Assembly (NCBI RefSeq): GCF_001014645.1
Contig: NZ_LASZ01000007.1
Span: 62,001-126,000 of the forward strand
Direction of reading: 5' to 3'
DNA: 64,000 nt
DNA from: Luteimonas sp. FCS-9
GTDB taxonomy: Bacteria; Pseudomonadota; Gammaproteobacteria; Xanthomonadales; Xanthomonadaceae
Shown here: piece after piece, positions 10,346-28,136 of the stretch
Layout of the letters: the number at the start of each line of letters is the position of its first letter
Position numbering within the stretch: position 1 is the stretch's first letter
The notes under the pieces: generated by a model
Told to the model about the DNA's origin: nothing
The model's database searches: none
Seen by the model: only the letters and a program-made list of their open reading frames with translations
Made by a program: the position numbers and the translations under genes

Positions 10346-11070
10346 GCGGCGCGGGACCTGCCGGAGAAGTGGGCGTGCAGCGCGGCCAGGTCGAACCCGG
10401 CGCGGTCGGCCTCGTACGCGATGCGGCCCTGCTCGAGGACACCGATGCGATCGGCGACCTCGACCGCACCCAGCAGGTCGTGGGTGACCATCAGCACCGA
10501 GGTGCCGCGGGCGCGCACCGATGCGAGCAGACCGTGGAAATCAGCGCTGGCGCCCGGGTCGAGACCGGAGGTCGGCTCGTCGAGCAGCAGCAACGGCACC
10601 TCGCGCGTGAGCGCCACGGCGATCGCGACCTTCTGGCGCATGCCCTTGGAAAAGCCGCCCAGGCGCTGCGTCCAGGCCGCCTCCTGCAGGCCGGCCGCAC
10701 GAAACGCCTCGTGGATCGCCTCGCGGGGTGCGCGGCGCCCGGCCAGCGAGAGCAGGTAGTCGGCGTTCTCGAACGCGGACAGATGCTCGTAGAGCGCGAC
10801 GTTCTCCGGCAGGTAGGCGAGACGGCGGCGCGCCTGCGCAGGCGCGCGGACCGGGTCGATGCCGGCCACCCGCACCTGGCCCGCATCGGGGCGCAGGAAG
10901 CCGAGCAGCACCGAGAGCGTGGTCGACTTGCCGGTGCCGTTGCCGCCGAGCAGGGCATAGACGCTGCCTTCGCCGACATGGAGGTCCAGTCCGGACAGCA
11001 CCGGCCTGCCGCCGAACGCGACGCGCAGTTGCTGGACATCGACGATCGGGGCGTTCGGGGGTGCGGGCAT
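10342..11070 (-). CDS. ABC transporter ATP-binding protein of the DUF3526 system
   Basis: A 242-residue ATPase (start taken at ATG 11070). Walker A is GGNGTGKST, the signature region GGFSKGMRQK, Walker B LLLLDEPTSGLDP and the switch His is in VLMVTHD. It resembles CcmA/NatA-type subunits of ABC-2 exporters. An ATG at 11107-11109 is in frame but overlaps the proposed operator at 11110-11122, so the downstream start is preferred, giving a leader of about 40 nt. First gene of a three-gene operon. Confidence 0.9.
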   Translation of the reverse strand: MPAPPNAPIVDVQQLRVAFGGRPVLSGLDLHVGEGSVYALLGGNGTGKSTTLSVLLGFLRPDAGQVRVAGIDPVRAPAQARRRLAYLPENVALYEHLSAFENADYLLSLAGRRAPREAIHEAFRAAGLQEAAWTQRLGGFSKGMRQKVAIAVALTREVPLLLLDEPTSGLDPGASADFHGLLASVRARGTSVLMVTHDLLGAVEVADRIGVLEQGRIAYEADRAGFDLAALHAHFSGRSRAA

Positions 11071-11109
11071 CGACACGTGCCGGGCTGGATGGGCCGGGCA
11101 CTTTATCAT

Positions 11110-11122
11110 GTAATAACATTAC
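11110..11122 (-). promoter_or_regulatory. Zur-like operator (a), GTAATAACATTAC
   Basis: AT-rich inverted repeat GTAAT-AAC-ATTAC in very GC-rich surroundings, just upstream of the ABC ATPase start. In the direction of transcription it reads GTAATGTTATTACAT, 14 of 15 bases identical to the site at 27904-27918. It shares AATGTTAT with the two sites at 14459 and 21415. Confidence 0.6.
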
Positions 11123-11166
11123 GAATTCCGCGCCCCGGCGCGCACGGCAGGCTGCGGGCGGGGGCC

Positions 11167-12435
11167 TCAGCCGATACCGATGGTCGCGGTCCTGGTCGGC
11201 CAGGGGTCGTCGAACGCCTGGCCGGCCTGCCAGGCACGGATCTCCGCCTCGGTGCAGAAGCACGTGCGGAGCGCATCGACGAACACGTCGAGTTCGTCCT
11301 CCTGGCCGATCACCGTGAGCTCGCACCGGCGGTCGCCGAAAAGCGGTGGGTACGAAGCGAGCTTGTCGGCCATCGCCTGACGCTCTTCACGGGTCATCTT
11401 CAGCGCGCGGTCCTGCAGGGCGACGACGCGCCAGTAGCCCAGCGCCTCCAGACCGATGGCGCCGGCCGCCTGGTTCCAGAGCAGGACCAGTTCGTCGCGC
11501 GAGGGGAGCCAGAAGAACCCCTTGGAACGATGGATGCCGATGCCCAGAAACTGGTGGTAGACCTCCCACAGGCGCCGGGGGTGGAAGGGCCGGGGATCGG
11601 CAAGGACCCGGGTGCCGATGCGGTATGCGCTCGGTTCGGCGATCTGCGAAGACGCGGTGTCGCTGCGCGTCGCGGACAACGTCTTCGCCAGAGGCGCCAC
11701 GCGGCGATGATCGTAGGGCGGCATCCGCAGGACATCGTCCAGGCGCAGCCCGCCCCAGCTGACGCCGACGATGTCGGCGTACGGGTTGAGCGGATGGATG
11801 GCATGGCCGATCTCCTGCAACGTGCCGTCAGCGAGACGGTCCTTCTTGGTCAGCAGGATCCGGTTGGCGAACATGATCTGCTCCGCCAGCAGGTTTTCGA
11901 TCCCGCGCCGGCCGGCAGCGTGGTTGCGCCGGAGGCCGGCCGCGATGGCTTCGCCGCGTTCGTAATCGCGGTCCAGCATGGCGCCGTCGAGCAGTGCGAT
12001 GAAGCCATGCAACTCGACGCCCGGCAGATCCCGCAGCGCTTCGATCAGCGGCCAGGGATGGGTGCTGCCGGACGTCTCCACCAGCAGATGGCTGGGCCGG
12101 TAGTCCGACAGCAGCGTCTCCACCGCACGCTTGAACACCGGCAGCAAACGCTTGCTGGAGATGCTACCGGTGGCGATCGAGATGAAATTGCCCTGGCGCT
12201 CACCGACCAGGTCGGTCCCGGCGATGACGTCCCGGTCGACGTCCAGATCGCTCATGTCATTGGCGATGACGGCCAGGCGCCAGGGCGCACCCGGTTGCGC
12301 GGCCTGACGCAGCAGGCCCTTGAGCAGCGTGGTCTTGCCGGCTCCGAGAAAACCGCTGAGCACGGTGACCGGCGTGACATCCTGCCGTCGTGCACGCGGC
12401 GGGGACGGCGTCCGCGCACGCGCGGTCATGCGCAC
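11167..12435 (-). CDS. COG0523 (CobW/ZigA-like) GTPase, putative zinc metallochaperone
   Basis: A 422-residue G3E GTPase with P-loop GFLGAGKTT (28-36), VIANDMSDLDVD after switch I, VETSGST, a TKKD base-recognition motif and a C-terminal CobW domain (FHPRRLWEVYHQFLG, FFWLPSRDELV). Such proteins deliver zinc during starvation (ZigA, YeiR, ZagA). Oddly, the usual CXCC metal motif after switch II is replaced by SISS at 91-94. A CxC pair occurs near the end (TCFCTEAE). Start is GTG 12435; ATG 12429 is also possible. It lies downstream of the phosphatase on the same strand, within the zinc-type cluster. Confidence 0.88.
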   Translation of the reverse strand: MRMTARARTPSPPRARRQDVTPVTVLSGFLGAGKTTLLKGLLRQAAQPGAPWRLAVIANDMSDLDVDRDVIAGTDLVGERQGNFISIATGSISSKRLLPVFKRAVETLLSDYRPSHLLVETSGSTHPWPLIEALRDLPGVELHGFIALLDGAMLDRDYERGEAIAAGLRRNHAAGRRGIENLLAEQIMFANRILLTKKDRLADGTLQEIGHAIHPLNPYADIVGVSWGGLRLDDVLRMPPYDHRRVAPLAKTLSATRSDTASSQIAEPSAYRIGTRVLADPRPFHPRRLWEVYHQFLGIGIHRSKGFFWLPSRDELVLLWNQAAGAIGLEALGYWRVVALQDRALKMTREERQAMADKLASYPPLFGDRRCELTVIGQEDELDVFVDALRTCFCTEAEIRAWQAGQAFDDPWPTRTATIGIG

Positions 12436-12651: not shown

Positions 12652-12671
12652 TCAGGCGCTCGAGATCATCG

Positions 12672-14261
12672 TCAGGGCGACTGTGTCCGCTGCAGATGCA
12701 GGCCCTCGACGGGGCGGCTCTCGAGCAGCGCCCTGACCACGAACGCCACGTCCGTGTTGTCGATGTAGCGGCCGTCGTTCCAGCCGACGTGCCGGGCGTA
12801 GCCATCGTCGCGTCCGCGCACGCGGCGTTCGAAGAGGTCCGCGCCCGCACCCTTGGCCCACAGCGGCACCAGGGCGTTGGAATGGTTGCCGGTGGGTCTG
12901 AAGCTGATGCCGGGCGTCGCGCCCCGGCCGCGATTGACCACGGGCTGGTACGCAACGGTCTGCGCGTCGGGGCCCATCGGCATGCTGTTGTCGTGGTCGG
13001 TGGTCACGATCAGCAGCGTCTCGTCCCAGTTGCTGTGGGCGTCCACCCAGGCGACCACGGCAGCGACCGCCCGGTTGAAGTCGACCGTCTCTTCGATCAG
13101 GCGGCCGTACTCGGGTTCGGAGGTGCAGGCGCCGTACTGCCATTGGGTGCCGCACTTGCTGGTATGCGCGGCCCAGTCGGTGGCACCGCCCTCGACCATC
13201 AGGAAGAAGCCCTCGTCGCTCCGCGCGGACAGATGCGCGATCGCGCCGCGCGTCATCGTCGCCAGCGTCGGGACGCTGGGCACCAGGCGGTCGCCGGAGG
13301 CCGTGGCGGCGTCGGCACCGAGGATCCGGCGTTCGCGCGCCTGCTGCAGCGTCCGGGCGATCCGCGGCACGCCGAGCACCGGGGCATCGGTGCGCAGCGT
13401 GCCTTCGGCCAGGGCGGCGAACTCTTCGTTACTGCGGATCACCTTCCAGGGCGCGCGGGCGCCGGCAGGCACGTAGCGGGCGGCCTGGAGCGCTTGCCAG
13501 TCTTCGGTCGCGAGGAACTCGTCGGGCTGCCTGCAGCCGGCCTGCGACTCGTCCGCCGCCAGCGCATCGCACGCGGTGCCGTTGACGTTGTAGCCCGGCG
13601 CGCCGGTGCCCATGATCAGATCGAGCCGGCCCTGGGTGAGCATCTGCCGCCCGATCTCGTGATAGCGGTTGCGCGAGGCGTTCTGCGCAGCGAAGGCGGC
13701 CGGGGTGGCATGCGTGAACGGCACGCTGGTCACCACGCCGGTCGCCTTGCCGGCTGCCTTGGCGACGAACGTGACCGGCTCGACCGGACGGCCGAAATTG
13801 TCGTGGTTGATCGCGTTGTTGTAGGTCTTGATGCCGGATGCCAGCGCGGTTCCGGCCGCGGCGCTGTCGGTGGCCGCGCGGGCCAGTTCGCGGTAGCCGA
13901 CGAACGGCAGCGCCGGATCGTCGCTGGGTTCGGTGCTCCAGGCCAGCGCGGGGTCGTAATCCACGCGCGCGGTCGCGTCGTGTGTCGGGCTGCTGCTGGT
14001 ATTGAGCGGCGAGGTGCGCATCGCGTAGCGGGCAGGGAAGTCCGCATACGGCGCGCCGCGCCGATGCCCGTACTGCCAGTATGCCGCGGCGTCCCAGGCG
14101 CCCCAGCCGGCGCCGTCGTTGATCATGACGATGACGTTGCGCACATGCGGTGGCGCTTCCGCGTCCTCGAGGCTGCGGCATCCCCCCAGGGCGGCGGGAA
14201 ACAGCGCGCATACGACCAGGCGGACCCACAGGCGGGTGGGGAGCGGTCGGATCATCGTCAT
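12672..14261 (-). CDS. Alkaline phosphatase, predicted lipoprotein
   Basis: A 529-residue protein with a lipoprotein signal (hydrophobic stretch then AALGGC, lipobox Cys near residue 25). The fold markers of metal-dependent alkaline phosphatases are present: VMINDGAGWG (first metal Asp), ATDSAAAGTALASG with the nucleophile Ser, MVEGGATDWAAH, TTDHDNSMPMG and TGNHSNALVP (metal ligands). These enzymes need zinc. The start is ATG 14261 with AAGG upstream; frames extending to 14453 have an implausible Arg/Pro-rich N-terminus. It is divergent from the TonB receptor, with the Zur-like site in the shared 229-bp gap. Confidence 0.9.
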   Translation of the reverse strand: MTMIRPLPTRLWVRLVVCALFPAALGGCRSLEDAEAPPHVRNVIVMINDGAGWGAWDAAAYWQYGHRRGAPYADFPARYAMRTSPLNTSSSPTHDATARVDYDPALAWSTEPSDDPALPFVGYRELARAATDSAAAGTALASGIKTYNNAINHDNFGRPVEPVTFVAKAAGKATGVVTSVPFTHATPAAFAAQNASRNRYHEIGRQMLTQGRLDLIMGTGAPGYNVNGTACDALAADESQAGCRQPDEFLATEDWQALQAARYVPAGARAPWKVIRSNEEFAALAEGTLRTDAPVLGVPRIARTLQQARERRILGADAATASGDRLVPSVPTLATMTRGAIAHLSARSDEGFFLMVEGGATDWAAHTSKCGTQWQYGACTSEPEYGRLIEETVDFNRAVAAVVAWVDAHSNWDETLLIVTTDHDNSMPMGPDAQTVAYQPVVNRGRGATPGISFRPTGNHSNALVPLWAKGAGADLFERRVRGRDDGYARHVGWNDGRYIDNTDVAFVVRALLESRPVEGLHLQRTQSP

Positions 14262-14458: not shown

Positions 14459-14474
14459 AATGTTATATTGTAAC
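14459..14474 (+). promoter_or_regulatory. Zur-like operator (b), AATGTTATATTGTAAC
   Basis: Core GTTATATTGTAAC matches the gammaproteobacterial Zur core GTTATANTATAAC at all but one defined position. It differs from the site at 21415-21430 by a single base. It ends 16 bp before the TonB receptor start and lies about 200 bp upstream of the divergent phosphatase. Confidence 0.75.
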
Positions 14475-14490: not shown

Positions 14491-16695
14491 ATGCCTGGAA
14501 CCCCACCCATGGCCCATCGCCTCCCCTCCCCTCCTGCGCGCCCGCGTGCGGCGACCGGCCCCCTGCGGCCGCTTGCGCTCACGTTGGCCGCCATCCTGTT
14601 TCCCCATGCCGCGTCGGCCCAGGACGACCGCGCCGCGACCCGACTCGACGCGGTCGAAGTGCGCGTGAGCACCGCGACCCGGACCGAACGGCTGCTGGCC
14701 GACGTGCCGGTACGGACCGAGGTGCTGCGCCAGCAGGACATCGAATTGCGCGCGGCCACGAACTTCTCCCAGGCTGCCGAACTGATCAACGGCGTCCGCG
14801 TCGAGAGCAACTGCCAGAACTGCAATACGTCGGAAGTGCAGTTGCTGGGCCTGGGCGGCGCATACAACCAGTTGCTGTTCGACGGCATCCCGCTGCTGTC
14901 GACGCTGGGCGGCGTCTACGGCCTGGAGCAGGTGCCCGCGGCGTTCGTCAACCGGATCGAAGTGGTCAAGGGCGGCGGCTCGTCGCTGTACGGGCCGGGC
15001 GCGGTCGCCGGGGTGATCAATCTCGTCTCCGAACAGCCGCTTCGCAATGGCGGCTTCGTGCAGGCGAGCGTCGACGTGCAGAAGGGCGAGCCGGTCTGGT
15101 ACGGCGACGGCCGTCTGGATGCGGTGAGCGAGGACGGCCGGTTCGGGGCGTCGTTCGTGGCACAGGCTGCGCAGAACGATGCCATCGACTACAACGGCGA
15201 CGGCTACAGCGAGATCACCGAGAAGACACAGCGCGTCGGCGGCTTCCAGGCCTGGTTCGCGCCGACCGATCGCACGCGCCTGCGGGCGGACTACCAGTAC
15301 ACGTGGGAGGAGCGACGCGGCGGCAACCGGCTCGACCAGCCCGAATACCTGGCCAACATCGCCGAGGCGCTGAAGACGCGTTACCAGCGCGGCAGCCTGT
15401 CCTGGGAACAGATCGTCGACGACGACTTCGACTTCCGGGTCAGTTACGCCTTCGCCGACATCCGCCGCGACAGCTTCTACGGCGGACTGGGCGAGGTGGA
15501 GACCGATCCGGCCAGCCCCGACTACGATCCCGACGCGCTCGACCCAACCCTCCCGGGCAGCGCCGCCTCGACGTCGTTCAACCAGTACGGCTTCACGCAC
15601 AATCCGTTGCATTACCTCGACACGCAGTTCAACTACCGCGCCGGCGCGCATGCGCTGGCGTTCGGGGTGCAGTACAAGCGCGAGCAGATCAAGGACGACA
15701 ACCGCAACGCGAACGGCGTGGTCCTGCGGCGCGCCGAGAATGCGACCTTCTCCAACCTGGGCGTCTTCGTGCAGGACGAATGGGCGGTCGACGATGCGAC
15801 CGATCTCGTGCTGGGCGCGCGGGTGGACAAGAGCTCGGAACTCGACAGCGCGGTGTTCTCGCCACGTATCGCGCTGGCCTTCCAGGCCACCGACCAGCTG
15901 AAGCTGCGCGCAGGCGTATCCACCGGGTTCCGGGCGCCCGAGGTGTTCAGCGAGGACCTGCACGTCGATACGCTCGGCGCCGAGCCGGTCTCGATCCGCA
16001 ACATCGACGGGCTCACCGAAGAGAAGGCGCTCACCGGCATGCTCGGCTTCGACTGGCGGTCCGATGCGCTCGATCCGCGGGTGTCGGTCGATGTGACCGC
16101 CTCCTACACGCAGCTGCGCGACAGCTTCGTGCTCAGCGAGATCCAGAGCGACGTGTTCGACGGCGAGCTGTTCCAGGTGCGCAGCAACTCCTCGGGCTCG
16201 GGCGTGTCGGGCATCGAAGCCAATGTGGGGTGGCAGCCGCGCGATACGCTGCGTCTGACCGCGGGCGTGTCGTGGTACCGGTCGCGCTACGACGATGCGC
16301 AGGTGGTGTTCGACGACACGGGCGACGGTGGCGATACGGTGATCGCGACCCGCGACTATCTCAAGACGCCGCAGTGGAGCGGACTGTCGCAGCTGGTGTG
16401 GTCGCCGAACGATCGCTGGGACGCGTTCGTGGGTCTGCGTTACACCGGGCGCATGCATGTGCTCAACAACAACGCCGGCGAACTGCGCCACGTCGACGAC
16501 TTCTGGGTCGTGGACACCGGCGCGACGCGTCACTTCCACCTCGGCGAGCGTGCGGTCGACGTCTCGTTCGGCGTCCGCAACCTGTTCGACGACCGCCAGA
16601 AGGACCTCGAAAGCGGCGCCGGGCGCGACAGCGACTACGTCTACGGGCCGCGGTTCGCCCGATCGGTCTACGCCAGCATCCGTCATGCGTTCTGA
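14491..16695 (+). CDS. TonB-dependent outer-membrane receptor with a Cys pair in the plug, probable zinc-related import
   Basis: A 734-residue protein with signal peptide (cleavage near ASAQ44-DD), plug domain (about 60-190) and a beta-barrel ending in Phe (RHAF), the outer-membrane insertion signal. The plug contains NCQNC (Cys108, Cys111) just before the LGLGGAYNQLLFDGIP strand. A thiol pair there could bind a soft metal or be kept reduced by the exported thioredoxin encoded next. A later start at ATG 14509 is possible. The Zur-like site just upstream argues for induction in zinc starvation. The substrate is inferred. Confidence 0.9.
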   Translation: MPGTPPMAHRLPSPPARPRAATGPLRPLALTLAAILFPHAASAQDDRAATRLDAVEVRVSTATRTERLLADVPVRTEVLRQQDIELRAATNFSQAAELINGVRVESNCQNCNTSEVQLLGLGGAYNQLLFDGIPLLSTLGGVYGLEQVPAAFVNRIEVVKGGGSSLYGPGAVAGVINLVSEQPLRNGGFVQASVDVQKGEPVWYGDGRLDAVSEDGRFGASFVAQAAQNDAIDYNGDGYSEITEKTQRVGGFQAWFAPTDRTRLRADYQYTWEERRGGNRLDQPEYLANIAEALKTRYQRGSLSWEQIVDDDFDFRVSYAFADIRRDSFYGGLGEVETDPASPDYDPDALDPTLPGSAASTSFNQYGFTHNPLHYLDTQFNYRAGAHALAFGVQYKREQIKDDNRNANGVVLRRAENATFSNLGVFVQDEWAVDDATDLVLGARVDKSSELDSAVFSPRIALAFQATDQLKLRAGVSTGFRAPEVFSEDLHVDTLGAEPVSIRNIDGLTEEKALTGMLGFDWRSDALDPRVSVDVTASYTQLRDSFVLSEIQSDVFDGELFQVRSNSSGSGVSGIEANVGWQPRDTLRLTAGVSWYRSRYDDAQVVFDDTGDGGDTVIATRDYLKTPQWSGLSQLVWSPNDRWDAFVGLRYTGRMHVLNNNAGELRHVDDFWVVDTGATRHFHLGERAVDVSFGVRNLFDDRQKDLESGAGRDSDYVYGPRFARSVYASIRHAF

Positions 16696-17287
16696 GGCAG
16701 CGACGTGGCTGCTCGCAGCCGCGCTGCTGTCCTGCCTCGCGCCGTCCTCGGTGCAGGCGGCGGAGCCCGAACGGGTGCCGCCGGATTTCCGCGCGCAGGT
16801 CGGCGACGCCCTGGTCCGGCCGGGCGAGGCACGGATGGCGCGATGGCAATGGCAGCGTCCGCCGGCGCTGCTGGTGCTGTACTTCGGCGCCGGCTGGTGC
16901 GGTCCCTGCCACGCCTTCGTGCCGACCCTGCGCGACGTCTACGCCGAACTGCGCGCCGCGGGCGTGGATACCGAAGTGGTGTTCGTGAGCCTCGACGAAT
17001 CCGAGCGCGACATGCGCCGCTACATGCGCAGGCAGTCGATGCCCTGGCCGGCTATCGACCACCGTCGCCTGCAGGCGATGCCGGCCGTCCGGCGCCTGGG
17101 CGGCATCGCCCCGCCGAATCTGGTCGTGATCGCACCCGACGGCACGGTGCTCGCCAACGGCTGGGACGGCAACCGCTATGCCGGGCTCGCGCCCGTGCTC
17201 GAGACCTGGCTTGCGGCGGCGCGGTCGTCCACACGCGAGCCCATGCACCCGCCTCCTTCGGCCCGACCCGGACTCCATCCACGATGA
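16685..17287 (+). CDS. Exported thioredoxin-like protein
   Basis: A 200-residue protein with signal peptide (residues 1-26, ending VQAAEP), then a TlpA/nucleoredoxin-like thioredoxin fold with active site WCGPC (71-75) in YFGAGWCGPCHAF and a cis-Pro loop at IAPPNLVV. It starts inside the end of the TonB receptor gene (11-bp overlap) and ends in a 4-base overlap with the next small gene, so all three are one operon. It may reduce the receptor's plug cysteines or another periplasmic thiol in the metal pathway; that role is inferred. Confidence 0.88.
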   Translation: MRSEAATWLLAAALLSCLAPSSVQAAEPERVPPDFRAQVGDALVRPGEARMARWQWQRPPALLVLYFGAGWCGPCHAFVPTLRDVYAELRAAGVDTEVVFVSLDESERDMRRYMRRQSMPWPAIDHRRLQAMPAVRRLGGIAPPNLVVIAPDGTVLANGWDGNRYAGLAPVLETWLAAARSSTREPMHPPPSARPGLHPR

Positions 17288-17502
17288 GCTCTCCCGTTCC
17301 GCGCGACTTTTCCGAATGGCGCCGCTGCATCGAAATCGACTGCGGCCTGGCGCTGACGCCCGACTTCATCGACGCCCGGCTGCGGGCGCTGCGCGACCCC
17401 CGCGATTTCCACACCCAGCGCTTCGACGACGTCTGGGGTCGCGCGCATCGCGAGCAGGTCATCGCGTGGTTCGAACAGGCGCGGGCCGGCGCAACGGGCT
17501 GA
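17284..17502 (+). CDS. Small unknown protein in the TonB-thioredoxin operon
   Basis: A 72-residue soluble protein, start ATG overlapping the thioredoxin stop (ATGA). Sequence is Asp/Arg-rich (DFSEWRRCIEIDCGLALTPD) with two Cys at about 15 and 20 and a helical tail (REQVIAWFEQARAG). No family was recognised. The tight overlap with a zinc-type receptor and a thioredoxin suggests a linked role. Confidence 0.75.
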   Translation: MSSPVPRDFSEWRRCIEIDCGLALTPDFIDARLRALRDPRDFHTQRFDDVWGRAHREQVIAWFEQARAGATG

Positions 17503-17523: not shown

Positions 17524-18228
17524 TCAGCGCTTGACCAGCCGGAACATCACCTTCGAGCGCGTGTAGTACGCCAGCGCCTGGTAGAAGTCCGGACTCCAGC
17601 CGTCGGGCGCGTAGGGCACGAAACCGGGATACTCGAACAACCTGGCGGTGACCGCGAATCCAGCGCGCTCGAACGCCTGCGCATAATCGCTGACGGAGCG
17701 ATCCTGGACGTCGGTGTGGGTGCGCTCGGCCACGATCTGCCGCCAGCGCGGCCATTGCGGATTGTCGGTGTGGCAGCCGGTGATCGCGTAGTACACGCCG
17801 CCGGGCCGCAGGACATCGAACAGCGTCCGGGCATGGGCCTGGATGTCTTCGATCAGATAGATCACCTCGTGGCTGAAGGCGAGGTCGAAATGGTCCGTCC
17901 ACCCGGCCAGTCCGACATCGGTCGTGTGCTGGACCGGCAGTGCGCCCTTGAGCGCCTCGGCCCGTTGGACGGATTGTTCGGCGATGTCGACGCCCAGCGC
18001 CCTGCTGAACGGCCGCAAGGCGTGCAATTGGCGGAGGAAACCGCCCTGGTTGCATCCGAAGTCGAGCACGGTCCGGGTCGACAGGTCGCCTTCGGGCATC
18101 AGCGCGACGATGTGCCGCCAGATCGGGGCATGGCCTTCGGCCATGTGCTGCTCGTCGGCGGGATCGACGTACCACGTCGGGATCAGTTTCTGGCTTGTCG
18201 GAACGGGCTGCATCGTGTGGGCCTCCAA
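17524..18228 (-). CDS. Class I SAM-dependent methyltransferase
   Basis: A 234-residue protein with motif I VLDFGCNQGGFL, the acidic strand-2 residue in LGVDIAEQ, and HFDLAFSHEVIYLIED then LRPGGVYYAI. These are the standard motifs of Rossmann-fold methyltransferases such as UbiE/Tam. The substrate is not evident. ATG 18213 is an alternative start. It follows the ZrgA-type operon on the same strand after 63 bp, so it might share its transcript. Confidence 0.88.
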   Translation of the reverse strand: MEAHTMQPVPTSQKLIPTWYVDPADEQHMAEGHAPIWRHIVALMPEGDLSTRTVLDFGCNQGGFLRQLHALRPFSRALGVDIAEQSVQRAEALKGALPVQHTTDVGLAGWTDHFDLAFSHEVIYLIEDIQAHARTLFDVLRPGGVYYAITGCHTDNPQWPRWRQIVAERTHTDVQDRSVSDYAQAFERAGFAVTARLFEYPGFVPYAPDGWSPDFYQALAYYTRSKVMFRLVKR

Positions 18229-18291: not shown

Positions 18292-18900
18292 TCAATCCGT
18301 ATAGGCCGTCAGCCTGGCATCCTTCATCGAGTAGGCGGTGCCGGCCAGCGCGTTCTGCGTCGCCTGGTCGGTCAGCTCGCCCTCGACCCAGTAGGCCTCG
18401 TAGATGTCGTCCACCCGCGTCGGCACGGCGAGTTGCACGTGCACGATCTGGTTGGGCGGCGGCGGCGGCACGTGGATGCACGCGCCGTAGTACGGCACCA
18501 GAAACAGCTCGGACACGCGTCCCTGGCCATCCGTTTCCAGCGGCACGACGTAGCCGGGCAACCGCATCGCGATCCCGAGAACGGCGGGCACGATCCGGTC
18601 GCTTCCGTATTGCGCCATCCTGTCGGTGCCGGTGTGACTGACCGGCCGGGGCGACGACAGGGCATCGAGCTCGTCGGCCGGCAACAGCTGCAGCCAGTCG
18701 AGTTCGAGCACGCCGTCGTCGCCCAGATAGCGCCAGTCGATCGGCTCGGCGCCCTCGGGACCCGGCGCCTGGGCGACCCGGTCGCGGGCGGTGGCAACGG
18801 TCTCGTCCGGGGCCGTCGCGCGCGACGGCGATGGCGGCTCCGAACATCCCGACGCCCCCAGCAGCGCCGCGAAGAACAGGGACAGGACGGGCCGCTTCAC
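18292..18900 (-). CDS. DUF3299 lipoprotein of the ZrgA-type zinc uptake system
   Basis: A 202-residue lipoprotein: GTG start at 18900, hydrophobic stretch then LLGASGC lipobox, followed by the DUF3299 core (RLPGYVVPLE, ELFLVPYYGACIHVPPPPPN). DUF3299 proteins are encoded in the Vibrio cholerae zrg zinc-regulated operon. The GTG overlaps the permease stop by 4 bases (GTGA). Last gene of the transport operon; a periplasmic zinc-handling role is inferred from that context. Confidence 0.85.
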   Translation of the reverse strand: MKRPVLSLFFAALLGASGCSEPPSPSRATAPDETVATARDRVAQAPGPEGAEPIDWRYLGDDGVLELDWLQLLPADELDALSSPRPVSHTGTDRMAQYGSDRIVPAVLGIAMRLPGYVVPLETDGQGRVSELFLVPYYGACIHVPPPPPNQIVHVQLAVPTRVDDIYEAYWVEGELTDQATQNALAGTAYSMKDARLTAYTD

Positions 18901-20159: not shown

Positions 20160-20863
20160 GCCGGGATTCCCGAAACGCGATTGATGCGCGCCAGGTCGAT
20201 CTCGCGGTCGAAGTGTCGCGCCAGCCGGCGATCGTGGCTGGCCAGCAGCAGGGTCGCGCCACTGCGCCGGACTTCGGCCATCAGCAGGGCCATGAACGCC
20301 GCGGCGCTGTCGTCGTCGAGCGCCGAAGTCGGCTCGTCGGCCACCACCAGCGCCGGGCGCCCGATCAGCGCGCGCGCGGCGGCCACGCGCTGCTGCTGGC
20401 CCACGCTCAACGCACTGGCCGGTACCGGCCCCAGCGCGGCCGGGTCCAGCCCGAGCCGTTCGAGCAACCGGTCGGCCTCCTCGTCCAGGGGACGGTCGGC
20501 AGCGGCCCGCGCACGGCGCGCCGACGAAAGCCGGCACCCCATCAGCACGTTGTCGCGCACCGACAGGAACGGCATCAGGTTGAACATCTGGAAGACGATG
20601 CCGATCTGCGCCGCACGCAGCGCGTCGCGCCGCGACGACCGCATCGCCTCGAGCGCGTTGCCCAGGACCTGCACCCGGCCCGAGACCGGCGCGACGATGC
20701 CGGCCACGAGCGCCAGCAGCGTGCTCTTGCCGCTGCCGCTGCGGCCATGCAGGAAGATGCGCTCGCCCCGGGCGATCCGCAGGCGGTCGATGTCGAGGAC
20801 GGCGCGGTCGGGCGTCCAGCCGAAAGCCACGTGCTCCAGGGCGATCGCGTCGGCGTCGCTCAT
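20156..20863 (-). CDS. LolD/MacB-type ABC ATPase of the ZrgA-type system
   Basis: A 235-residue ATPase with Walker A GRSGSGKST, Q-loop FQMFNLMPFLS, signature LSVGQQQR, Walker B ALVVADEPTSALD and switch LLASHD. It groups with LolD/MacB-type ATPases that pair with FtsX-like permeases, as here. It starts in a 4-base overlap with the DUF2796 gene and ends in a 4-base overlap with the permease gene. Confidence 0.9.
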   Translation of the reverse strand: MSDADAIALEHVAFGWTPDRAVLDIDRLRIARGERIFLHGRSGSGKSTLLALVAGIVAPVSGRVQVLGNALEAMRSSRRDALRAAQIGIVFQMFNLMPFLSVRDNVLMGCRLSSARRARAAADRPLDEEADRLLERLGLDPAALGPVPASALSVGQQQRVAAARALIGRPALVVADEPTSALDDDSAAAFMALLMAEVRRSGATLLLASHDRRLARHFDREIDLARINRVSGIPA

Positions 20864-21399
20864 GGCCGCAGCCGCGCGACGGGGGTCCGCGGGCTCAGCA
20901 CCTGTTCGCCCTGCATGTCGTCGACGATGTATTCCACACGCACGCGCTCGAGTGCGGGAAAGCGCTGGAACAGGTCCAGACGCAACTCCGTCAGACGGGC
21001 CGGCCGGGCACAGACGAAGCGGTAGCTGGCCGCGAGATCCGCATGCCCGGGCGTGGCGTGCGAGCCGGATGCGAACGCACCGGCGTCGACGGTGCGGTCC
21101 TGCAGCCGACAGCCGGCCGCGGCGCTGGGCGTCAACCAGGCCGACGGCGCTTCGAAATGGGCCGCCACCTGCTCCACCTGCCGGGATTCCGCAGGGTCGC
21201 GCGCCCGCCGCTCGAAGCCCACCACGCTCGCGCCGGGCGCCTGCAGCGTCACCGTCAGCGTCCGGGACTCGAGCACGAGTTGGGCCTGCGCCTGGCCATG
21301 GACGTGCGGGCCGTGCCCGGGACCGTGCGCCTGCGCGAGGCCGACGGCCAGCAGCGCGAGCGCCGCGACAGGCAGGGATCGATGAAGGACGGGGAACAT
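20860..21399 (-). CDS. zrgA: ZrgA-like (DUF2796) zinc uptake protein
   Basis: A 179-residue exported protein: signal peptide (1-24) then a His-rich start (AHGPGHGPHVHGQAQ) and the DUF2796 core (VTLQAPGASVVGFERRARDP, AAGCRL, ADLAASYRFVCARP, LFQRFPALERVRV). DUF2796 is now called ZrgA after the zinc-regulated operon of Vibrio cholerae, where it aids growth in low zinc. The start at ATG 21399 lies 16 bp from a Zur-like site. It leads a four-gene operon with ATPase, permease and DUF3299. Confidence 0.88.
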   Translation of the reverse strand: MFPVLHRSLPVAALALLAVGLAQAHGPGHGPHVHGQAQAQLVLESRTLTVTLQAPGASVVGFERRARDPAESRQVEQVAAHFEAPSAWLTPSAAAGCRLQDRTVDAGAFASGSHATPGHADLAASYRFVCARPARLTELRLDLFQRFPALERVRVEYIVDDMQGEQVLSPRTPVARLRP

Positions 21400-21414: not shown

Positions 21415-21430
21415 AATGTTATATAGTAAC
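21415..21430. promoter_or_regulatory. Zur-like operator (c), AATGTTATATAGTAAC
   Basis: One base different from operator (b). It sits in a 34-bp gap between the divergent zrgA and merC-like genes and would control both. It ends 3 bp before the MerC start, so the + strand transcript would have almost no leader. Confidence 0.75.
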
Positions 21431-21433: not shown

Positions 21434-21910
21434 ATGAGCCGATCGACGCACGCGCTCCGCGACCCGCCCTTCAGCGCGCGCTGGGCCGACCTGTTCGGCA
21501 TGGCGTGGTCCGGGCTGTGCGCGGTCCATTGCCTGGCGATGCCGCTGGCGTTCGTCCTGGCGCCTTCGCTGCTGATCGCCCTGCATTCCCATCGCCATCC
21601 CGACCACGCGCTGGCATTGGTGTTGGTGACGATGACGCGCTGGGAGTGGCTGATCGCGTCGTCCGCGGTCGTGGTCGCGCTGGTGGCCAGCGTCTACGGG
21701 CTGCGGCGGCACCGGGCGTATGCGCCGCTGGCCGTGACGCTGGCCGGCGCGGGGTCGCTGGCGATCGCCCTGCTGGTGCCGTCCGTGACGCACCACGCGA
21801 TCTGGCATTCGGTTCTGGGCGTCGCCGGAGGCGGCTGTCTGGTCGCCGCCCATGCCGTCAATCTGCGCGCGCATGCGGCGTCGCGCCGGGCGCAGCGCGG
21901 CTTCTCGTAG
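21434..21910 (+). CDS. MerC-domain membrane protein
   Basis: A 158-residue inner-membrane protein with four hydrophobic helices. The MerC-type thiol motif CAVHC (29-33) is in the first helix, and there are His-rich loops (LHSHRHPDHA). MerC proteins move soft metals such as mercury. Homologues near zur-controlled genes suggest zinc handling. No Shine-Dalgarno is visible before ATG 21434, because the Zur-like site occupies that space, so translation may be leaderless. Confidence 0.82.
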   Translation: MSRSTHALRDPPFSARWADLFGMAWSGLCAVHCLAMPLAFVLAPSLLIALHSHRHPDHALALVLVTMTRWEWLIASSAVVVALVASVYGLRRHRAYAPLAVTLAGAGSLAIALLVPSVTHHAIWHSVLGVAGGGCLVAAHAVNLRAHAASRRAQRGFS

Positions 21911-22573
21911 ATGCGCGCGGCCCGACGTCTCCCCGCGCCGCCCACGGGGGACCGCTATCTGTTCGACGTGCGTCCGGAGATCCTGCTCCGGATCCGGGAA
22001 CCACAGACGTCGCTGGCGGTCTGGCAGCGGCGGCCAGCGTCGGACGTGCTGGCGCAGGCGCGCATGGTGTCGCCGGCTGAAGGCACCGTGCGGCGATCCG
22101 TTGCGGTCGATACCGGATTCGCGCGCGATCTGGACCTCGCACTCGAGGCGGCGCTGGCGCCGGGTACCGGCGTCGACGAGGTCGCAGCGCTGCGTAGCGA
22201 CCTTGCGCTGCTGTTGCACTGGGCCCGACGCATCGCGCCGGACTGCCGGGCGCTGCCGTTGCGTATCGCACGCGTGGAGGGCGACGGGTGCCGCCTGTTC
22301 CATTCCGACCAGGTCGCCCTGCGGATGATCTGCACCTATGCGGGGGCCGGAACCCAGTGGCTGCGCGAGAGCGCGGTCGATCGCGCGGCGTTGGGGCAAG
22401 GCAACAACGATGGCGTGCTGGACTGGGCGGCCGTGCGCCAGCTCGCGACCGGCGAGGTGGCGGTCATGAAGGGCGCACGGTTCGCCGGCCCTGGCCCGGG
22501 GGGCCTCATCCACCGCTCTCCGCCGAAGTCCGACACGTCGCGATGCACGGTCGTGATCGATATCGACGGATGA
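21911..22573 (+). CDS. DUF1826 protein
   Basis: A 220-residue soluble protein beginning at the base after the MerC stop codon. The core CRLFHSDQVALRMICTYAGA followed by GTQWL, and the LATGEVAVMKGARF segment, match DUF1826, whose conserved His and Cys suggest metal binding. DUF1826 genes recur beside COG0523 and other Zur-controlled genes in proteobacteria. The molecular function is unknown; the context argues for zinc starvation. Confidence 0.82.
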   Translation: MRAARRLPAPPTGDRYLFDVRPEILLRIREPQTSLAVWQRRPASDVLAQARMVSPAEGTVRRSVAVDTGFARDLDLALEAALAPGTGVDEVAALRSDLALLLHWARRIAPDCRALPLRIARVEGDGCRLFHSDQVALRMICTYAGAGTQWLRESAVDRAALGQGNNDGVLDWAAVRQLATGEVAVMKGARFAGPGPGGLIHRSPPKSDTSRCTVVIDIDG

Positions 22574-22709: not shown

Positions 22710-23405
22710 ATGTCCCGACTCGTGGTTTGCCTGCTCGCACTGCTCGCCTGCACAGCGTCTGCGTTCGCCTCGTCCGGCCTCGAGCAACAGACGGCGCCGT
22801 TCTCGCTGCCGGCGCTGCCCTATGCCGACGACGCCCTTGCGCCCGCCATCGACGCCGAGACGATGCGACTGCACCATGGCCGGCACCACAAAGCCTATGT
22901 CGACAATCTCAACACCGCGCTCGAGGCCGCGTCCCGGCATGGCGGGGCCGATCTGGGGGCAGTGCTGGCCAAGGTATCGAGCTACGACGGCGCCGTGCGC
23001 AACAACGCGGGCGGGCACTACAACCACAGCCTGTTCTGGACGCTGATGGCGCCGGCCGGCCAGGGCGGCGCGCCGTCGGCACGGCTCGCGGCGCGTATCG
23101 CACAGGATTTCGGCAGTCACGAGGCGTTCGTCTCCCGGTTCGAGGCGGCGGCGCGCGGGGTCTTCGGATCGGGATGGGTGTGGCTGATCGCCCGACCCGA
23201 CGGCTCGCTGGCGATCACCACCACCGCCAACCAGGACAATCCGTTGATGGACGTGGTTGCCGAACGCGGCACGCCGCTGCTGGCGCTCGACGTCTGGGAG
23301 CACGGGTACTACCTGCAGTACCGCAATCGGCGGGCCGACTACATCGCGGCCTGGTGGACGGTCGTCAACTGGGCGCAGGTCAACCGGCGCTACGCGGCAC
23401 TGTGA
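22710..23405 (+). CDS. Exported Mn-type superoxide dismutase
   Basis: A 231-residue Fe/Mn SOD preceded by a clear signal peptide (MSRLVVCLLALLACTASAFA), so it is probably periplasmic. Metal ligands are in LHHGRHHKAYV, HYNHSLFW and DVWEHGYYLQY. The second-sphere pattern, a Gly-Gly-His before the second ligand and ANQDNPLM later, is that of Mn rather than Fe enzymes. Start ATG 22710 has AAGGAG 7 bp upstream. It follows DUF1826 and is probably in the same zinc-starvation transcript, where it could replace a Cu,Zn enzyme. Confidence 0.88.
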   Translation: MSRLVVCLLALLACTASAFASSGLEQQTAPFSLPALPYADDALAPAIDAETMRLHHGRHHKAYVDNLNTALEAASRHGGADLGAVLAKVSSYDGAVRNNAGGHYNHSLFWTLMAPAGQGGAPSARLAARIAQDFGSHEAFVSRFEAAARGVFGSGWVWLIARPDGSLAITTTANQDNPLMDVVAERGTPLLALDVWEHGYYLQYRNRRADYIAAWWTVVNWAQVNRRYAAL

Positions 23406-23426: not shown

Positions 23427-25543
23427 TCACCAACGCAGGGCGTAGCGCAGTTCGGCATGCCGGGGGCTTCCGTAGAAGGCACGGATGTTGGGCGCGGCGA
23501 CATAGGCGCGGTCGAACAGATTGGTGACGTGCAGCGCAAGCTCGCCCCTGCGCGCCAGCGGCATCGCCACACGCAGGTCGACGACGGTGTAACCGGGCTG
23601 GCGGGCCGTGAAGACGAAGGGCGCCGCGACCGCGAGCCGGCTCTCACTGAATGCGCGCAGCCCCAGCCCGGCCGACCAGCCCGGCAGCGGCCCGCCGGCG
23701 GCGAACGTGTAGGTGCTCCATAGCTTGAACGTGTGCCGCGGCGAGAAGGCGTTGAAGTCGCTGCCGTCCTCGGCGCCGTAGCCAGAGGCGAACCGGGTGC
23801 GCGTCTGGGTGTAGCCGACCGTCGCATGCCAGCGCTCGGCCAGTTCGCCCGACAGTTCGATCTCCGCCCCGCGGCTCTCGACCTCGCCGGCGGCGACCCA
23901 GGCCTCGGGGTCGGCCGGGTCCCGGATCGCGCGGTTGGTGTCGCGTGCGTCGAACAGCGCCAGGTTGAGCAGGAGGCGATCGTCGCCGAACCCGGCCTTG
24001 GCGCCCAGCTCGACCTGGCGGCCGACCAGCGGCGGCAGCAGCGCCCCGGTGCCGTCCTCGGTCCCCCAGCTCTGCGGACGGAAGATGTCGGCATAGCTGG
24101 CGTAGGCGTTCCAGCGCGGCGAGACCCGCCACACCAGCGCGCCGTACGGGGTGAAGACGCCGGCCTCGTCGTAGTTCGGCGTCGTGGTCCCGCCGCTCGT
24201 GCTGTGCGAGCGATAGCGGCTCAACCGGCTCCCCAGATGCAGCTGCAGCCGGTCGGCGATGGCGAAGCGGCCTTGCGCGTAGAGGCCCGCCTGGACGATG
24301 CGGGTGCTGCGCGGTTCCGGCCGGTCGAGCTCGACATAAGGCACGTCCGCATCGCCGAACGCCCAGAGTCCCACCGACGGCGCGTTGCGGGTCCAGTTCT
24401 GGAACTCGAACTGTTCGACATTGCCGCCGATGACGACCACATGCTCGCGGCCTGCCGCCTGGAAGCGGCCCAGCAGGTGCACGTCGCCGGTCCACTGGTC
24501 GCCCTCGAACCAGGTGGCGCGATTGATCAGCGCCGAACGGCCGGTCTGGGCGAAGTCCGGGTGGGGGTTGTGGAAGGCGAAGCGCTTGCGGTCGTCGTAG
24601 CGGCGGTAATCCACAGCGGCCTTGAGCGTCAGCGCGTCGCCGAAGCCGTGCGTCAGGTCCATGCCCGCGTCGGTGCGATGCAGATCGAAGCGGCTCCAGC
24701 GCGCGCCGCCGTACTGGCCGCGCGGCGTGTAGCGCGTCCCGTCGTAGAGCGCGCCGAAGTTGGGCTGGACGCTGCTCGACTGCGCCTGCGCGTGGAACGC
24801 CAGCGTGGTCGTCTGGCCAAGATCGGCTTCGACGATCGCATAGCCCTGGCGCTTGTTGCTGCCGACATGGGGCAGCCACGCGTTGCGCGTCTCGCCCGTC
24901 AGTACCGCGCGGCCACGCACCCGGCCATCGGCCCGCAACGGACGCGACAGGTCGATCGAGCCACGCAGCGCGTCCCACTGTCCCAGCGTGACCTGGGCCT
25001 CGTTCAGTGGCGTGGCCGTCGGGCGTTTGCGGACCAGGTTCACGGTCCCGCCGAGCTGGCCTTGCCCCTGCATCAGCCCGTCGGGGCCGCGCAGGATCTC
25101 CACGCGCTCGTACAGCGCCGTGTCGAGGCCGGCACCGTAGTACGCGGTGTCGAAGGGAATGCCGTTTTCCGAGACCGACATCGCGAAGCCCCGCGAATAG
25201 AACATCGGGCCGTCGTCCATGTCGCCCTGATCGCGCACGTAGACACCGGTGGCGCGCTCAACGGCCCGTGCGATGGACGTGACGTGTTCCTCATCGAGAC
25301 GTGCGCGGTCGATCGTCGAGATCGACCGCGGCGTGTCCTTCGCGTCGATCGGCAGCTTGCCGCCGATCGTGACCGGACCGTCCACGGGGCGCTGGCCGAC
25401 GACCAGACGGGCGACAGGCTGCTGGCGTCCCCCACAGGCGAACCCGAAGCGCGCGCGTCCTCGGGATGGACGTCGGCCGCGACCGGCAACGGCGCAGCAA
25501 GGATCAGCGACAGGCAGGCGGACGGTCGCAGGAACATCGGCAT
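23427..25543 (-). CDS. TonB-dependent siderophore-type receptor, frameshifted after the signal peptide
   Basis: The plug and barrel (LVVGQRPVDGPVTIGGKLP to the C-terminal ALRW) are complete. The signal peptide (MPMFLRPSACLSLILAA) is in another frame starting at ATG 25543. The frames would join if the G5 run at 25429-25433 (minus strand) held six G, or by a -1 slip there. The body has the plug motifs of siderophore receptors (RGPDGLMQGQGQLGG, ending ELRYALRW). It lies 50 bp downstream of another receptor of the same type, so it shares that promoter. It is either a decayed gene, a phase-variable gene or a sequencing error. Confidence 0.8.
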
Positions 25544-25593
25544 CGGAAGGACTCGAACAGGAAAGGGGAGCGCAAATGCAGACGGCGGCGCGC

Positions 25594-27792
25594 TCAGAAC
25601 CGCGCCCGCAGCGTGGCCATGACATTGCGTGGCTCGCCGGGCATGTTGTAGCTGTTGAGCCCGCCCACGCGTGCCCAGTAGTGCCGGTCGAACAGGTTGT
25701 TGACCGCGACCGAGACGCGCAGCGCGGGCGAGATCGCATAGCCGGCATGCAGGCTGGCCACGGCGTGACCACCCTGCTCGCGCACGCCGGCAACGCCGGT
25801 GCCCAGGAGGCCGCTGGACACGTGCGCGCCGCCGCCAATCGACAGGCCGTCGAGCGCACCGCGGTCGATCCGGTAGTGCGCGAACAGCTTGAAGGCGTGG
25901 CGCGGCTCGAACAGGCTGAACGGTTCGCCTGCGTCGAAGCTCTGGTGCGCAACGTAGCGCGTGCGCAGCTGGGTGTAGCCGGCCGTCAGGTCGAGGTTGC
26001 GCAGCGGGCTGCCGCCGGCCTCGACCTCCCAGCCCTCGATCTCCACTTCGCCGGCCTGCAGGAAGAAGCCGGGATGGGCGGTGTCGGGATAGGCGCGGTT
26101 GACGTCGCGTGTCCGGAAGGCGGCCGCGCTCAGCTGCAGGCCGCCGCCGAACACGCGGGCCTTCGCGCCGATCTCCAACTGCTTGCCCACGCGCGGGTCG
26201 ATCGCCTCACCGGTGACCCTGCGCTGCGTCTGCGGCAGGAAGGTATCGGCGTGGCTGGCATAGACGGTGACGTCGTCGGCGATGCGATGGACGAGGCCGA
26301 CATAAGGCGTGAATTCATCGTCGGACTTCGCGCCATCCGTCCAGGGCGTGAGCGGCTGCGGCGCGACGGTCCGGCTCCTGACCGAGAAGTCGCTCCAGCG
26401 ACCGCCCACCACGCCGGTGAGCCGCTCGCTCAGCGCCCAGCGCAGCTGGCCGTAGAGGCCGGCCTGCCAGGTGCGCGAGCGATAGCCGCTGGTGTGGGGA
26501 ATCGGCACGTCCTCGACGACACGCGGATCGAGCACCGGCACGTCGCGGACCGGCGCGCCCTGCCCCCACAGCGTGGTGCTCTCGTAGTCCTCGAGGCTCA
26601 TGCCCGCCAGCACCTGATGCTCCCGGCCAAGCAGGCGGAACGGGCCGGCGACGAATGCGTCGAGCGCGGTACGCGTCTCGGCGTTGTCGCTGCGCCGGCG
26701 CGCATAGCTGGCGACGGTGCCGGTGTCGCGGTCGACGCCACCGGTGGGATAGCTGTCGCGGTAGTCCCAGTCCAGCGTCTGGCGGCCCAGCCGGACCCGG
26801 CCGAGCCAGCCGCCGTCGAACGCGTGCTCGAGGTCCAGCGACAGCGCGGTCTTGTCCCACTTCTGGATCACCCAGTCGGGATAGACGTAGGTCGAGCGCG
26901 GCACGTCTAGGAATCCCTGGTCGGTGTAGGCCGGCAGGCCGGCGTACGGCATCACGGCGTCGCGCTGGCGCGTGGCCGACAGCGACACGGTGGTGCGCTC
27001 GCCCAGGTCGTAGTCCAGCGTGCCGTAGACCAAGTGCTTGCGCGACTCGGCGGTGTCGTAGAAATAGCCGCGGTCTTGGGTCGAGGCGACGAGCCGGCTG
27101 CGCAGCGCGCCGTCCGCGGTGAGCGGCCCGCCGACGTCGAGTTCGGCGCGTGCGTTGGACCAGGACCCGACCGAAAGCACGGCCGATCCGCCGAAGGTGT
27201 CGCGCCCGCGCTTGCGCACGAAGTTGGCGACGCCGCCCGGCTGGCTGGAGCCTTGGAACAGACCGCCGGGGCCGCGCAGCACCTCGATACGATCGTAGAT
27301 CGCCAGGTCGAACTGCTGGAACGCCGACAGCGCGCCGTAGGCCGGGATGCCGTCGTAGGCCGCCTCCAGGTTGTAGCCGCGCGAACGGATCTGGCTGGTC
27401 GCGCCGTCCCACGGCGTCACGGTCACACCGGTGACCTCGCGCAAGGCGCTCTCCACATCGACCAGATCCTGATCCTCGATGCGCTGGCGCGTGACCACGC
27501 TGACCGAGTTGGGCACGTCCAGCACGTCGACGGCGACCTTGCCGCCGGGCGCGACCGAGGGCGCGGCATAGGACCCGCTGCCCTCGGTCGCCAGCCGGCG
27601 CGCGCGCACTTCGATGGGGGAGAACTCCCTGGCCTCGTCGCCCGTGGCCGTGCCTGCGGGCGTCTGGGCGGAGGCGCCGGCAGCCACGCCCAGTGCGCTG
27701 GCCAGCAGGACGCCTGCGAGGGCAGGCTTGGCACGGGAGGACGCGGCATCGGGCGCCAGCGGGACGGCACGGCAGGGCGCGCGGCGACGCAC
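25594..27792 (-). CDS. TonB-dependent siderophore-type receptor
   Basis: A 732-residue receptor with signal peptide (about residues 1-43, ending GASAQ), plug (QRIEDQDLVDVESALREVTG, IEVLRGPGGLFQGSSQPGG) and barrel ending RARF. The plug motifs match FhuE/FpvA-like siderophore receptors. The promoter carries palindrome (d), 111 bp upstream, which is nearly identical to the site before the ABC operon. Control by zinc would make it a candidate importer of zinc bound to a metallophore rather than of iron. Confidence 0.9.
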   Translation of the reverse strand: MRRRAPCRAVPLAPDAASSRAKPALAGVLLASALGVAAGASAQTPAGTATGDEAREFSPIEVRARRLATEGSGSYAAPSVAPGGKVAVDVLDVPNSVSVVTRQRIEDQDLVDVESALREVTGVTVTPWDGATSQIRSRGYNLEAAYDGIPAYGALSAFQQFDLAIYDRIEVLRGPGGLFQGSSQPGGVANFVRKRGRDTFGGSAVLSVGSWSNARAELDVGGPLTADGALRSRLVASTQDRGYFYDTAESRKHLVYGTLDYDLGERTTVSLSATRQRDAVMPYAGLPAYTDQGFLDVPRSTYVYPDWVIQKWDKTALSLDLEHAFDGGWLGRVRLGRQTLDWDYRDSYPTGGVDRDTGTVASYARRRSDNAETRTALDAFVAGPFRLLGREHQVLAGMSLEDYESTTLWGQGAPVRDVPVLDPRVVEDVPIPHTSGYRSRTWQAGLYGQLRWALSERLTGVVGGRWSDFSVRSRTVAPQPLTPWTDGAKSDDEFTPYVGLVHRIADDVTVYASHADTFLPQTQRRVTGEAIDPRVGKQLEIGAKARVFGGGLQLSAAAFRTRDVNRAYPDTAHPGFFLQAGEVEIEGWEVEAGGSPLRNLDLTAGYTQLRTRYVAHQSFDAGEPFSLFEPRHAFKLFAHYRIDRGALDGLSIGGGAHVSSGLLGTGVAGVREQGGHAVASLHAGYAISPALRVSVAVNNLFDRHYWARVGGLNSYNMPGEPRNVMATLRARF

Positions 27793-28136
27793 GCCGCACG
27801 AGAGAAGTGAGATGTCGATGGTCGTGACTCGGCAGGAGGACGCGCATGGGCGGGCCGGGCGCTGCGCACTGCTCCCGCCTCCGGAACCGGAGCCCGGCGT
27901 TATTGTAACGTTATTACATATCTAGTTGGCGCTGTCGCCTTGGCTTGGCACTTGGCGCGACATCTTCGACGCCTGCAGCGTGTCCGACCGGGACAGCGAT
28001 GCAGTGGCCGGCGCCTTTCGGCGGGCATCCGACATCGGCCTGCGCGACGTGGAACGCGTGTAGGCGCCCTCCCGGACCGACACGTGCAGCAGGCGAGACA
28101 GCCCCGAGGCGGTCCCGCGGCCGACACGGAAGGTTG
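27793..28136. other. Gene-free region, with operator and a short orphan frame
   Basis: Holds operator (d) and, at 27926-28063 on the + strand, a 45-codon frame with a protein-like composition (TWRDIFDACSVSDRDSDAVA then GAFRRASDIGL). It has only a TTG start and no ribosome site, so it may be a gene remnant. Nothing else was seen. Confidence 0.4.
27904..27918 (-). promoter_or_regulatory. Zur-like operator (d), TGTAACGTTATTACA
   Basis: Inverted repeat TGTAA-CGTTA-TTACA upstream of the receptor gene at 25594-27792. GTAACGTTATTACAT is 14 of 15 identical to the reverse of site (a). The overlapping GTTATTGTAAC (27899-27909) also resembles the core of sites (b) and (c). Confidence 0.6.

Follow-up and report, generated by a model that had tools for sequence, protein, structure and literature searches.

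Genes with presumed roles in zinc starvation are grouped in a block of about 20 kb in the 3.95-Mb genome of a Luteimonas strain (Xanthomonadaceae), together with four copies of a Zur-type operator. The block was read with Pfam models and an operator matrix in a window of 64 kb, positions 62001-126000 of contig 7 (C7); coordinates without a contig name are window positions. Judged from its sequence, the block is very probably a cluster of operons repressed by Zur, an ordinary regulatory principle in an unusually compact form and with several unstudied partners. It is Zur binding and derepression at the cluster that we infer. Our confidence is high for regulation by Zur, and low for any mechanism of transport.

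A preliminary description of this DNA had proposed a zinc-starvation cluster with four Zur-type operators over 11070..27918. Independent promoter training, a scan of the whole genome and comparison with relatives concur with that proposal. Pfam confirmed every gene named in it: the DUF3526 pair and an ABC (ATP-binding cassette) ATPase, cobW/COG0523, alkaline phosphatase, three TonB receptors, a thioredoxin-like protein, DUF3299, an FtsX/MacB permease and ATPase, ZrgA (PF10986), MerC, DUF1826 and Fe/Mn superoxide dismutase (SOD). The grouping is real, but most of the ABC/DUF3526 operon (7650-11109) lies to the left of the proposed start, and the gene for a 72-aa protein at 17284-17502 had been overlooked.

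Operators in the window and in the genome

The four operators are listed with their scores and palindrome cores.

11106..11126: site (a), Zur-type box before the ABC/DUF3526 operon; core 11110-11122; 20.4 bits
14458..14478: site (b), Zur-type box between alkaline phosphatase and TonB1; core 14462-14474; 29.3 bits
21414..21434: site (c), Zur-type box between zrgA and merC; core 21418-21430; 34.5 bits
27901..27921: site (d), Zur-type box before TonB3; core 27905-27917; 24.7 bits

Scores are those of a 21-bp matrix built from 25 sites in the promoters of zrgA and zigA, of which 11 of 16 and 14 of 16 respectively had a site at ≤2 mismatches. For zrgA, 600 bp upstream were used at 16 of the 18 loci in relatives, leaving out the two (G085, G101) where zrgA stands together with DUF3526. 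For zigA, 300 bp were used, and one of the 16 promoters was that of this genome's own zigA, on another contig. No training site came from the window, and circularity was therefore avoided. At ≥12 bits the matrix found exactly the four palindromes that had been proposed as operators, with two overlapping side matches (six matches at four places in the 64 kb), whereas 200 dinucleotide shuffles gave a mean of 0.045 matches per window.

The sites fall into two sister forms, GTTATATTGTAAC and GTTATATAGTAAC for (b) and (c), and GTAATGTTATTAC and GTAACGTTATTAC for (a) and (d). As had been described, (b) and (c) differ by a single base; they have one and two mismatches to the consensus GTTATANTATAAC.

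It is exceedingly improbable that AT-rich sequence arising by chance, or terminators, account for the palindromes, and we rejected this explanation. It draws on the simple consensus: at ≤2 mismatches GTTATANTATAAC has limited specificity across the genome (8 places, 7 of them distinct, versus 4 for the reversed control), and one of these places falls within an argS-like frame, named by eye. However, GTTATANTATAAC at ≤3 mismatches occurred at 6 places in the 64 kb where 0.46 were expected, and the shuffled windows gave almost no matrix matches. The form of (a) and (d), GTAAYGTTATTAC, was found at ≤1 mismatch at three places genome-wide, versus none for the reversed control, and the trained matrix is far more specific than the consensus. 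Four of 10 distinct genome places fall within 17 kb (p = 7e-8 under uniform placement), a value that is partly circular because the (a)/(d) pattern was taken from the window; for the GTTATANTATAAC places alone, the figure is two of seven (p = 4e-4).

The footprint of (a) is also kept in four congeners (G001, G009, G022 and G045), where its exact 13-mer stands at the same place before the ABC/DUF3526 trio. Over 120 genomes this 13-mer occurred at 17 places in 15 genomes, versus 2 for the reversed control. Two places are in the present genome, four precede the DUF3526 trio, and five precede orthologues of the TonB receptor at C7:179626. Of the remainder, two are at ZnuD-like matches (one weak, 27%), one is before a MerC gene, one is near a weak ABC match, and two, both in G078, are without a zinc gene nearby. 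Site (a) agrees at 13 of 15 bases with GTAATGTAATAACAT, one Paracoccus Zur motif reported from a promoter studied by gel shift (PMC5387054).

The genome carries two FUR-family genes. The one on contig 16 (C16) has Zur as its best model (133.7 bits, E = 5e-39; cut-off 167), and the one on C1 passes the Fur cut-off. For the receptor adjoining the probable zur gene the best model is ZnuD (699.7 bits; cut-off 950), and a separate, true ZigA is encoded on C2 (684.5 bits, passing the cut-off of 600). Outside the window, boxes stand before ZigA (C2:18152), before MerC and the ZnuD-like receptor beside the probable zur gene (C16), and before the TonB receptor at C7:179626. Upstream of zur itself, the highest score in the stretch tested was -9.8 bits and no box was found. 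No ZnuA-type binding protein was matched in the genome, whereas 11 of 14 control genomes gave matches; ZnuB, ZIP and NRAMP were not searched for. A literature search for Luteimonas and Zur gave no paper naming Luteimonas among the matches listed.

Two ABC systems and their counterparts

Each of the two ABC systems of the block is encoded on the minus strand next to an operator, the first beside (c) and the second beside (a).

20860..21399, minus strand: ZrgA (PF10986, E = 9e-42)
20156..20863, minus strand: ABC ATPase, ZrgC (PF00005)
18897..20159, minus strand: FtsX/MacB-type permease, ZrgB (PF02687, PF12704)
18292..18900, minus strand: DUF3299 protein, ZrgE (PF11736)
10342..11070, minus strand: ABC ATPase, ZnuG-like by gene content (PF00005; alternative start 11109)
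8906..10345, minus strand: DUF3526 permease a, ZnuH-like by gene content (PF12040, E = 4e-36)
7650..8909, minus strand: DUF3526 permease b, ZnuI-like by gene content (PF12040, E = 6e-35)

zrgA, the ATPase, the MacB/FtsX permease and DUF3299 stand in Zrg operon order, and by their domain content they are the known Zrg operon. ZrgA has been reported to help Vibrio parahaemolyticus acquire zinc (PMC9817125), while the homologous PA4063-4066 of Pseudomonas is reported as a MacB-type exporter linked to pyochelin-cobalt (PMC11481552). The Luteimonas operon shares with both systems, as described in these reports, ZrgA, an ATPase, an FtsX/MacB permease, a DUF3299-type gene and a Zur-type box. It differs from both in that its ZrgA is without the long His run, which most relatives aligned carry, and in that its operator also serves the divergent merC-DUF1826-sod operon. 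Vibrio is described as having zrgD between zrgA and the box, where Luteimonas has nothing: no gene lies between zrgA and (c), and no DUF2607 (zrgD) was found among the scanned proteins. The same report describes zrgD as not universal in the Vibrionaceae (PMC9817125). ZrgA is rare in the genus. It passed the cut-off in 19 of 120 genomes, and the 51 congeners sampled gave two matches, both weak and below the cut-off. At the zrgA loci of 18 relatives the Zrg permease and DUF3299 adjoined in 16, with a MerC match on the other side in six.

The ABC/DUF3526 trio is probably the counterpart of Caulobacter ZnuGHI, a likeness of gene make-up and not a sequence comparison with CC1518-1520. In a zur mutant of Caulobacter, znuGHI (an 'ABC-2 type' ATPase and two permeases) and znuK are reportedly raised 11.6-41.3-fold, and Zur is reported to bind the region of their promoters (PMC4176598). 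In common with that system, as described there, Luteimonas has an ATPase with two ABC-2-type permeases, a TonB receptor and a Zur-type box. DUF3526 matches were obtained in Caulobacter, the sole positive among 14 control genomes; a literature search found no paper naming DUF3526. The arrangements differ. Caulobacter znuK and znuG are described as having a common promoter region (PMC4176598), whereas five congeners (G001, G009, G022, G039 and G045) have a receptor gene of the C7:179626 type, with 81-83% identity, behind the trio and in the same orientation. In the present genome this likely receptor stands at a distance of about 107 kb from the trio, and both have a box of their own. A receptor 63% identical to this type is divergent from the trio in G029. 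Two relatives, G085 and G101, have the trio flanked by MerC and zrgA, and in G085 a FUR-family gene separates MerC from the trio.

The larger permease, DUF3526a, has a NosY-like predicted fold. Its AlphaFold2 model (predicted local distance difference test score, 84) found NosY as best match in the PDB with Foldseek (7o0y_D, E = 4.7e-5), at a large root-mean-square deviation of 16-26 Å; the top ten matches of DUF3526b were all NosDFY chains, and weak (best E = 0.057). NosDFY is an ABC system for copper maturation. The trio departs from NosFY in the near-double length of DUF3526a (479 versus 267 residues) and in having two different permeases, and no NosD-like gene was noticed in the Luteimonas cluster. 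DUF3526a carries conserved His and Glu residues in a loop behind the first long helix, with H70, E104 and H106 invariant in an alignment of 19 sequences. Conservation of H70, H74 and H106 among 80 further loci (the named loci, below) is circular, because the search patterns for those loci contained these residues.

Relatives of DUF3526a were found in 19 of the 120 genomes, this one included, and in 542 stretches of the GTDB collection, 80 of which were kept and read as named loci; two were removed before boxes were counted. A box lay within 430 bp in 65 of the 78 remaining operons, and over all 80 loci there were 134 matches in 1.60 Mb. Of the relatives' DUF3526 operons 20 of 23 had a Zur-type box, tested over 300 bp upstream (600 bp for G093 and G074; the operon of G006, a short locus, was left out). 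An unbiased dyad search upstream of 73 non-redundant named operons yielded TGATA-N3-TATCA in 17, ATGAT-N7-ATCAT in 11, ATGTT-N2-AACAT in eight and GTAAT-N3-ATTAC in seven, every dyad being expected at ≤0.05; 17 of the 73 are named Xanthomonas sites, which are not independent of one another. A dyad-type box preceded ZigA/MerC, DUF1826 or ZnuD-like genes in six of ten alphaproteobacterial loci read. Of the 80 named loci, 51 had a TonB-receptor match no more than about 1.5 kb from the trio and 29 had none at that distance, a count that would miss receptors too unlike the queries.

Several results weigh against Zur control of the block. The stretch tested was without a box in three of the 23 relatives' DUF3526 operons (G005b, G101b, G105) and in 13 of the 78 named ones, five of 16 zrgA and two of 16 zigA promoters had no site, and the Zur and ZnuD model scores given above fall under their curated cut-offs. 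Another zinc-set gene (ZigA/COG0523, DUF1826, MerC, Zur or Zrg) was present on only four of the 80 named DUF3526 stretches, so that the link to zinc at these loci leans mainly on the box. This last count favours a narrower Zur cluster, made up of the zrg, MerC, DUF1826, SOD and TonB1 part alone, with the siderophore-type TonB2 and TonB3 and the trio serving iron or another metal under a different FUR-family regulator at (a) and (d). The sequence of (a) and (d) does differ from that of (b) and (c), and TonB3 resembles FauA/FhuE siderophore receptors. We nevertheless consider this division improbable: the matrix from zrgA and zigA promoters recognises (a) and (d) at 20.4 and 24.7 bits, hybrid forms such as GTAATGTTATAAC stand before DUF3526 operons, in G022 and G045 the first gene of a DUF3526 operon with a Zur-type box is TonB3-like, and Zur is reported to bind the znuGHI promoter in Caulobacter (PMC4176598).

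A new zinc acquisition system, which had been thought plausible, is not supported: for both the zrg operon and the trio, counterparts are either described or probable, namely Vibrio ZrgABCDE, Pseudomonas PA4063-4066 and Caulobacter znuGHI/znuK. Nor did relatives have the same gene order. The complete order was present in none of those read and the modules turned up separately, and a single conserved island was rejected on these grounds.

Accessory genes and doubtful members

The other genes of the block are listed from left to right.

11167..12429, minus strand: COG0523 GTPase (PF02492, PF07683), GSISS for GCICC, Walker A intact
12672..14261, minus strand: alkaline phosphatase, PhoA-like (PF00245)
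14509..16695, plus strand: TonB1 receptor (PF00593, PF07715)
16685..17287, plus strand: thioredoxin-like protein (PF13905), export-type N-terminus by eye
17284..17502, plus strand: 72-aa protein, no Pfam or NCBIfam model, two invariant Cys
17524..18213, minus strand: S-adenosylmethionine (SAM) methyltransferase, membership uncertain (PF13489)
21434..21910, plus strand: MerC-family membrane protein (PF03203)
21911..22573, plus strand: DUF1826 protein (PF08856)
22710..23405, plus strand: Fe/Mn SOD (PF02777, PF00081), export-type N-terminus by eye
23427..25543, minus strand: TonB2 receptor (PF00593, PF07715)
25594..27792, minus strand: TonB3 receptor, FauA/FhuE-like (NF049960, E = 3e-106, below its cut-off)

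TonB1 is close to zigA in five relatives (G004, G014, G015, G025 and G069), and in G069 TonB1, thioredoxin, the small open reading frame, SOD and MerC occur together. Eleven of 120 genomes, among them the present one, encode the 72-aa protein, and its two Cys are invariant in eight aligned sequences. In ten of the 11 genomes it lies near at least one other zinc-set gene (ZigA, DUF1826, zrgA, ZnuD-like, DUF3526 or TonB1/SOD/MerC); in G068 it adjoins a 32-bit box alone. The exported Fe/Mn-SOD could substitute for a periplasmic Cu/Zn enzyme. A literature search for MerC and Zur listed only matches unrelated by title.

The COG0523 protein has the Walker A motif of a G3E GTPase. It resembles the ZigA/COG0523 metallochaperone GTPases, as they are described (PMC2770081), in combining this domain with CobW_C and in standing in a zinc cluster, but GSISS takes the place of their metal motif GCICC. 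The CXCC motif is thus absent, whereas GCICC was present in 16 of 16 ZigA-type loci read; the ZigA model gave 193.5 bits (cut-off 600). Because of GSISS we classed it as a COG0523-like paralogue and not as ZigA. The closest relatives found are on two Paracoccus plasmids (55 and 53% identity, with GSISD and GSISG), where their neighbours are DUF1826 and a gene for a ZigA-type GTPase, scoring 601.5 and 597.8 bits against the cut-off of 600; one of these plasmids also encodes, directly upstream, a relative of the 72-aa protein that has the same length. The best other matches in the 120 relatives were 30-38% identical. A relative of 37% identity (G413) is also without the motif, and its locus has a 32-bit box about 1.2 kb upstream.

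Some of these genes may be passengers. In this account alkaline phosphatase, COG0523, the methyltransferase and perhaps the thioredoxin sit between Zur operons and take no part in the response, which we regard as quite possible, if somewhat less than probable. Three findings favour it and add to those already set against Zur control of the entire block. The matrix scan of the window found no box directly before the COG0523 gene. The methyltransferase had no support as a member, with one 33% match in the zrgA loci of 18 relatives, whose zrg operons do not include it. No strong Zur-type box was found at alkaline phosphatase in three close relatives: the orthologue loci of G014 and G069 were without a match of ≥10 bits, and that of G042 had one of 13.2 bits about 450 bp upstream. 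On the other side, the COG0523 relatives adjoin ZigA-type and DUF1826 genes on both Paracoccus plasmids, and the TonB1-to-MerC group, thioredoxin included, recurs in G069. Within a Zur-repressed cluster we hold alkaline phosphatase and the methyltransferase to be the weak members.

The link of alkaline phosphatase to zinc control is the shared gap with site (b) only, given its orthologues without a strong box, and we rejected it as a general Zur target. A metal-free enzyme was considered; by eye the protein retains the D/H motifs of PhoA-type enzymes, at what we take to be the ligand positions, and it therefore probably requires zinc itself.

In the TonB2 region (23427-25952) a signal-like start (ATG 25543) is out of frame with plug and barrel, owing to a natural frameshift or an assembly error. 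The window COG0523 protein matched 1245 plasmid records at E ≤ 1e-60, mostly from Klebsiella (657) and Escherichia (551). One Cys-free relative (DSISS) is on an E. coli plasmid (L246:5899-7092); the trained matrix found no box upstream of it.

A possible route for zinc

With zinc plentiful, Zn-Zur would occupy the four operators and shut the promoters; with zinc short, it would be released from them. The TonB receptors would then carry zinc or a zinc chelate over the outer membrane, ZrgA may bind the metal in the periplasm, and two ABC machines, the MacB-like Zrg pair and the NosFY-like ABC/DUF3526 trio, would act at the inner membrane. COG0523, DUF1826, MerC, the exported Fe/Mn-SOD and thioredoxin may help in coping with scarce zinc. 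In this scheme we infer what each of the two ABC systems transports, and in which direction, and what every accessory part does.

A wider proposal, which we put forward as doubtful, is that this lineage and many Xanthomonadaceae and Sphingomonadaceae, when starved of zinc, rely on ABC machines of exporter fold and not on ZnuABC. The NosFY-like DUF3526 trio would energise or reshape a periplasmic hand-over of zinc from TonB receptors by way of its conserved histidines, with no classical binding protein, and the Cys-free COG0523 protein would be a zinc-sparing twin of ZigA, in the way that C-minus ribosomal proteins stand in for copies that bind zinc.

Most parts of the cluster resemble known systems, and the block ties several unstudied protein families to zinc. 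Less expected are the widespread boxed trio with its receptor at a distance here, the GSISS form of COG0523 and the recurring 72-aa protein. Testable roles in zinc supply follow for DUF3526, the Cys-free COG0523 branch and the 72-aa protein, and the question becomes a sharper one: by what means zinc acquisition could be served by an ABC-2 transporter that is NosY-like and has no known binding protein.

Further Zur-type boxes were seen before a Peptidase_M3 gene (G000:C2:14503, 26.5 bits) and near a DUF305 gene (L014:1707, 24.0 bits). A DUF411 protein is encoded at 29721-30362, just beyond the block.

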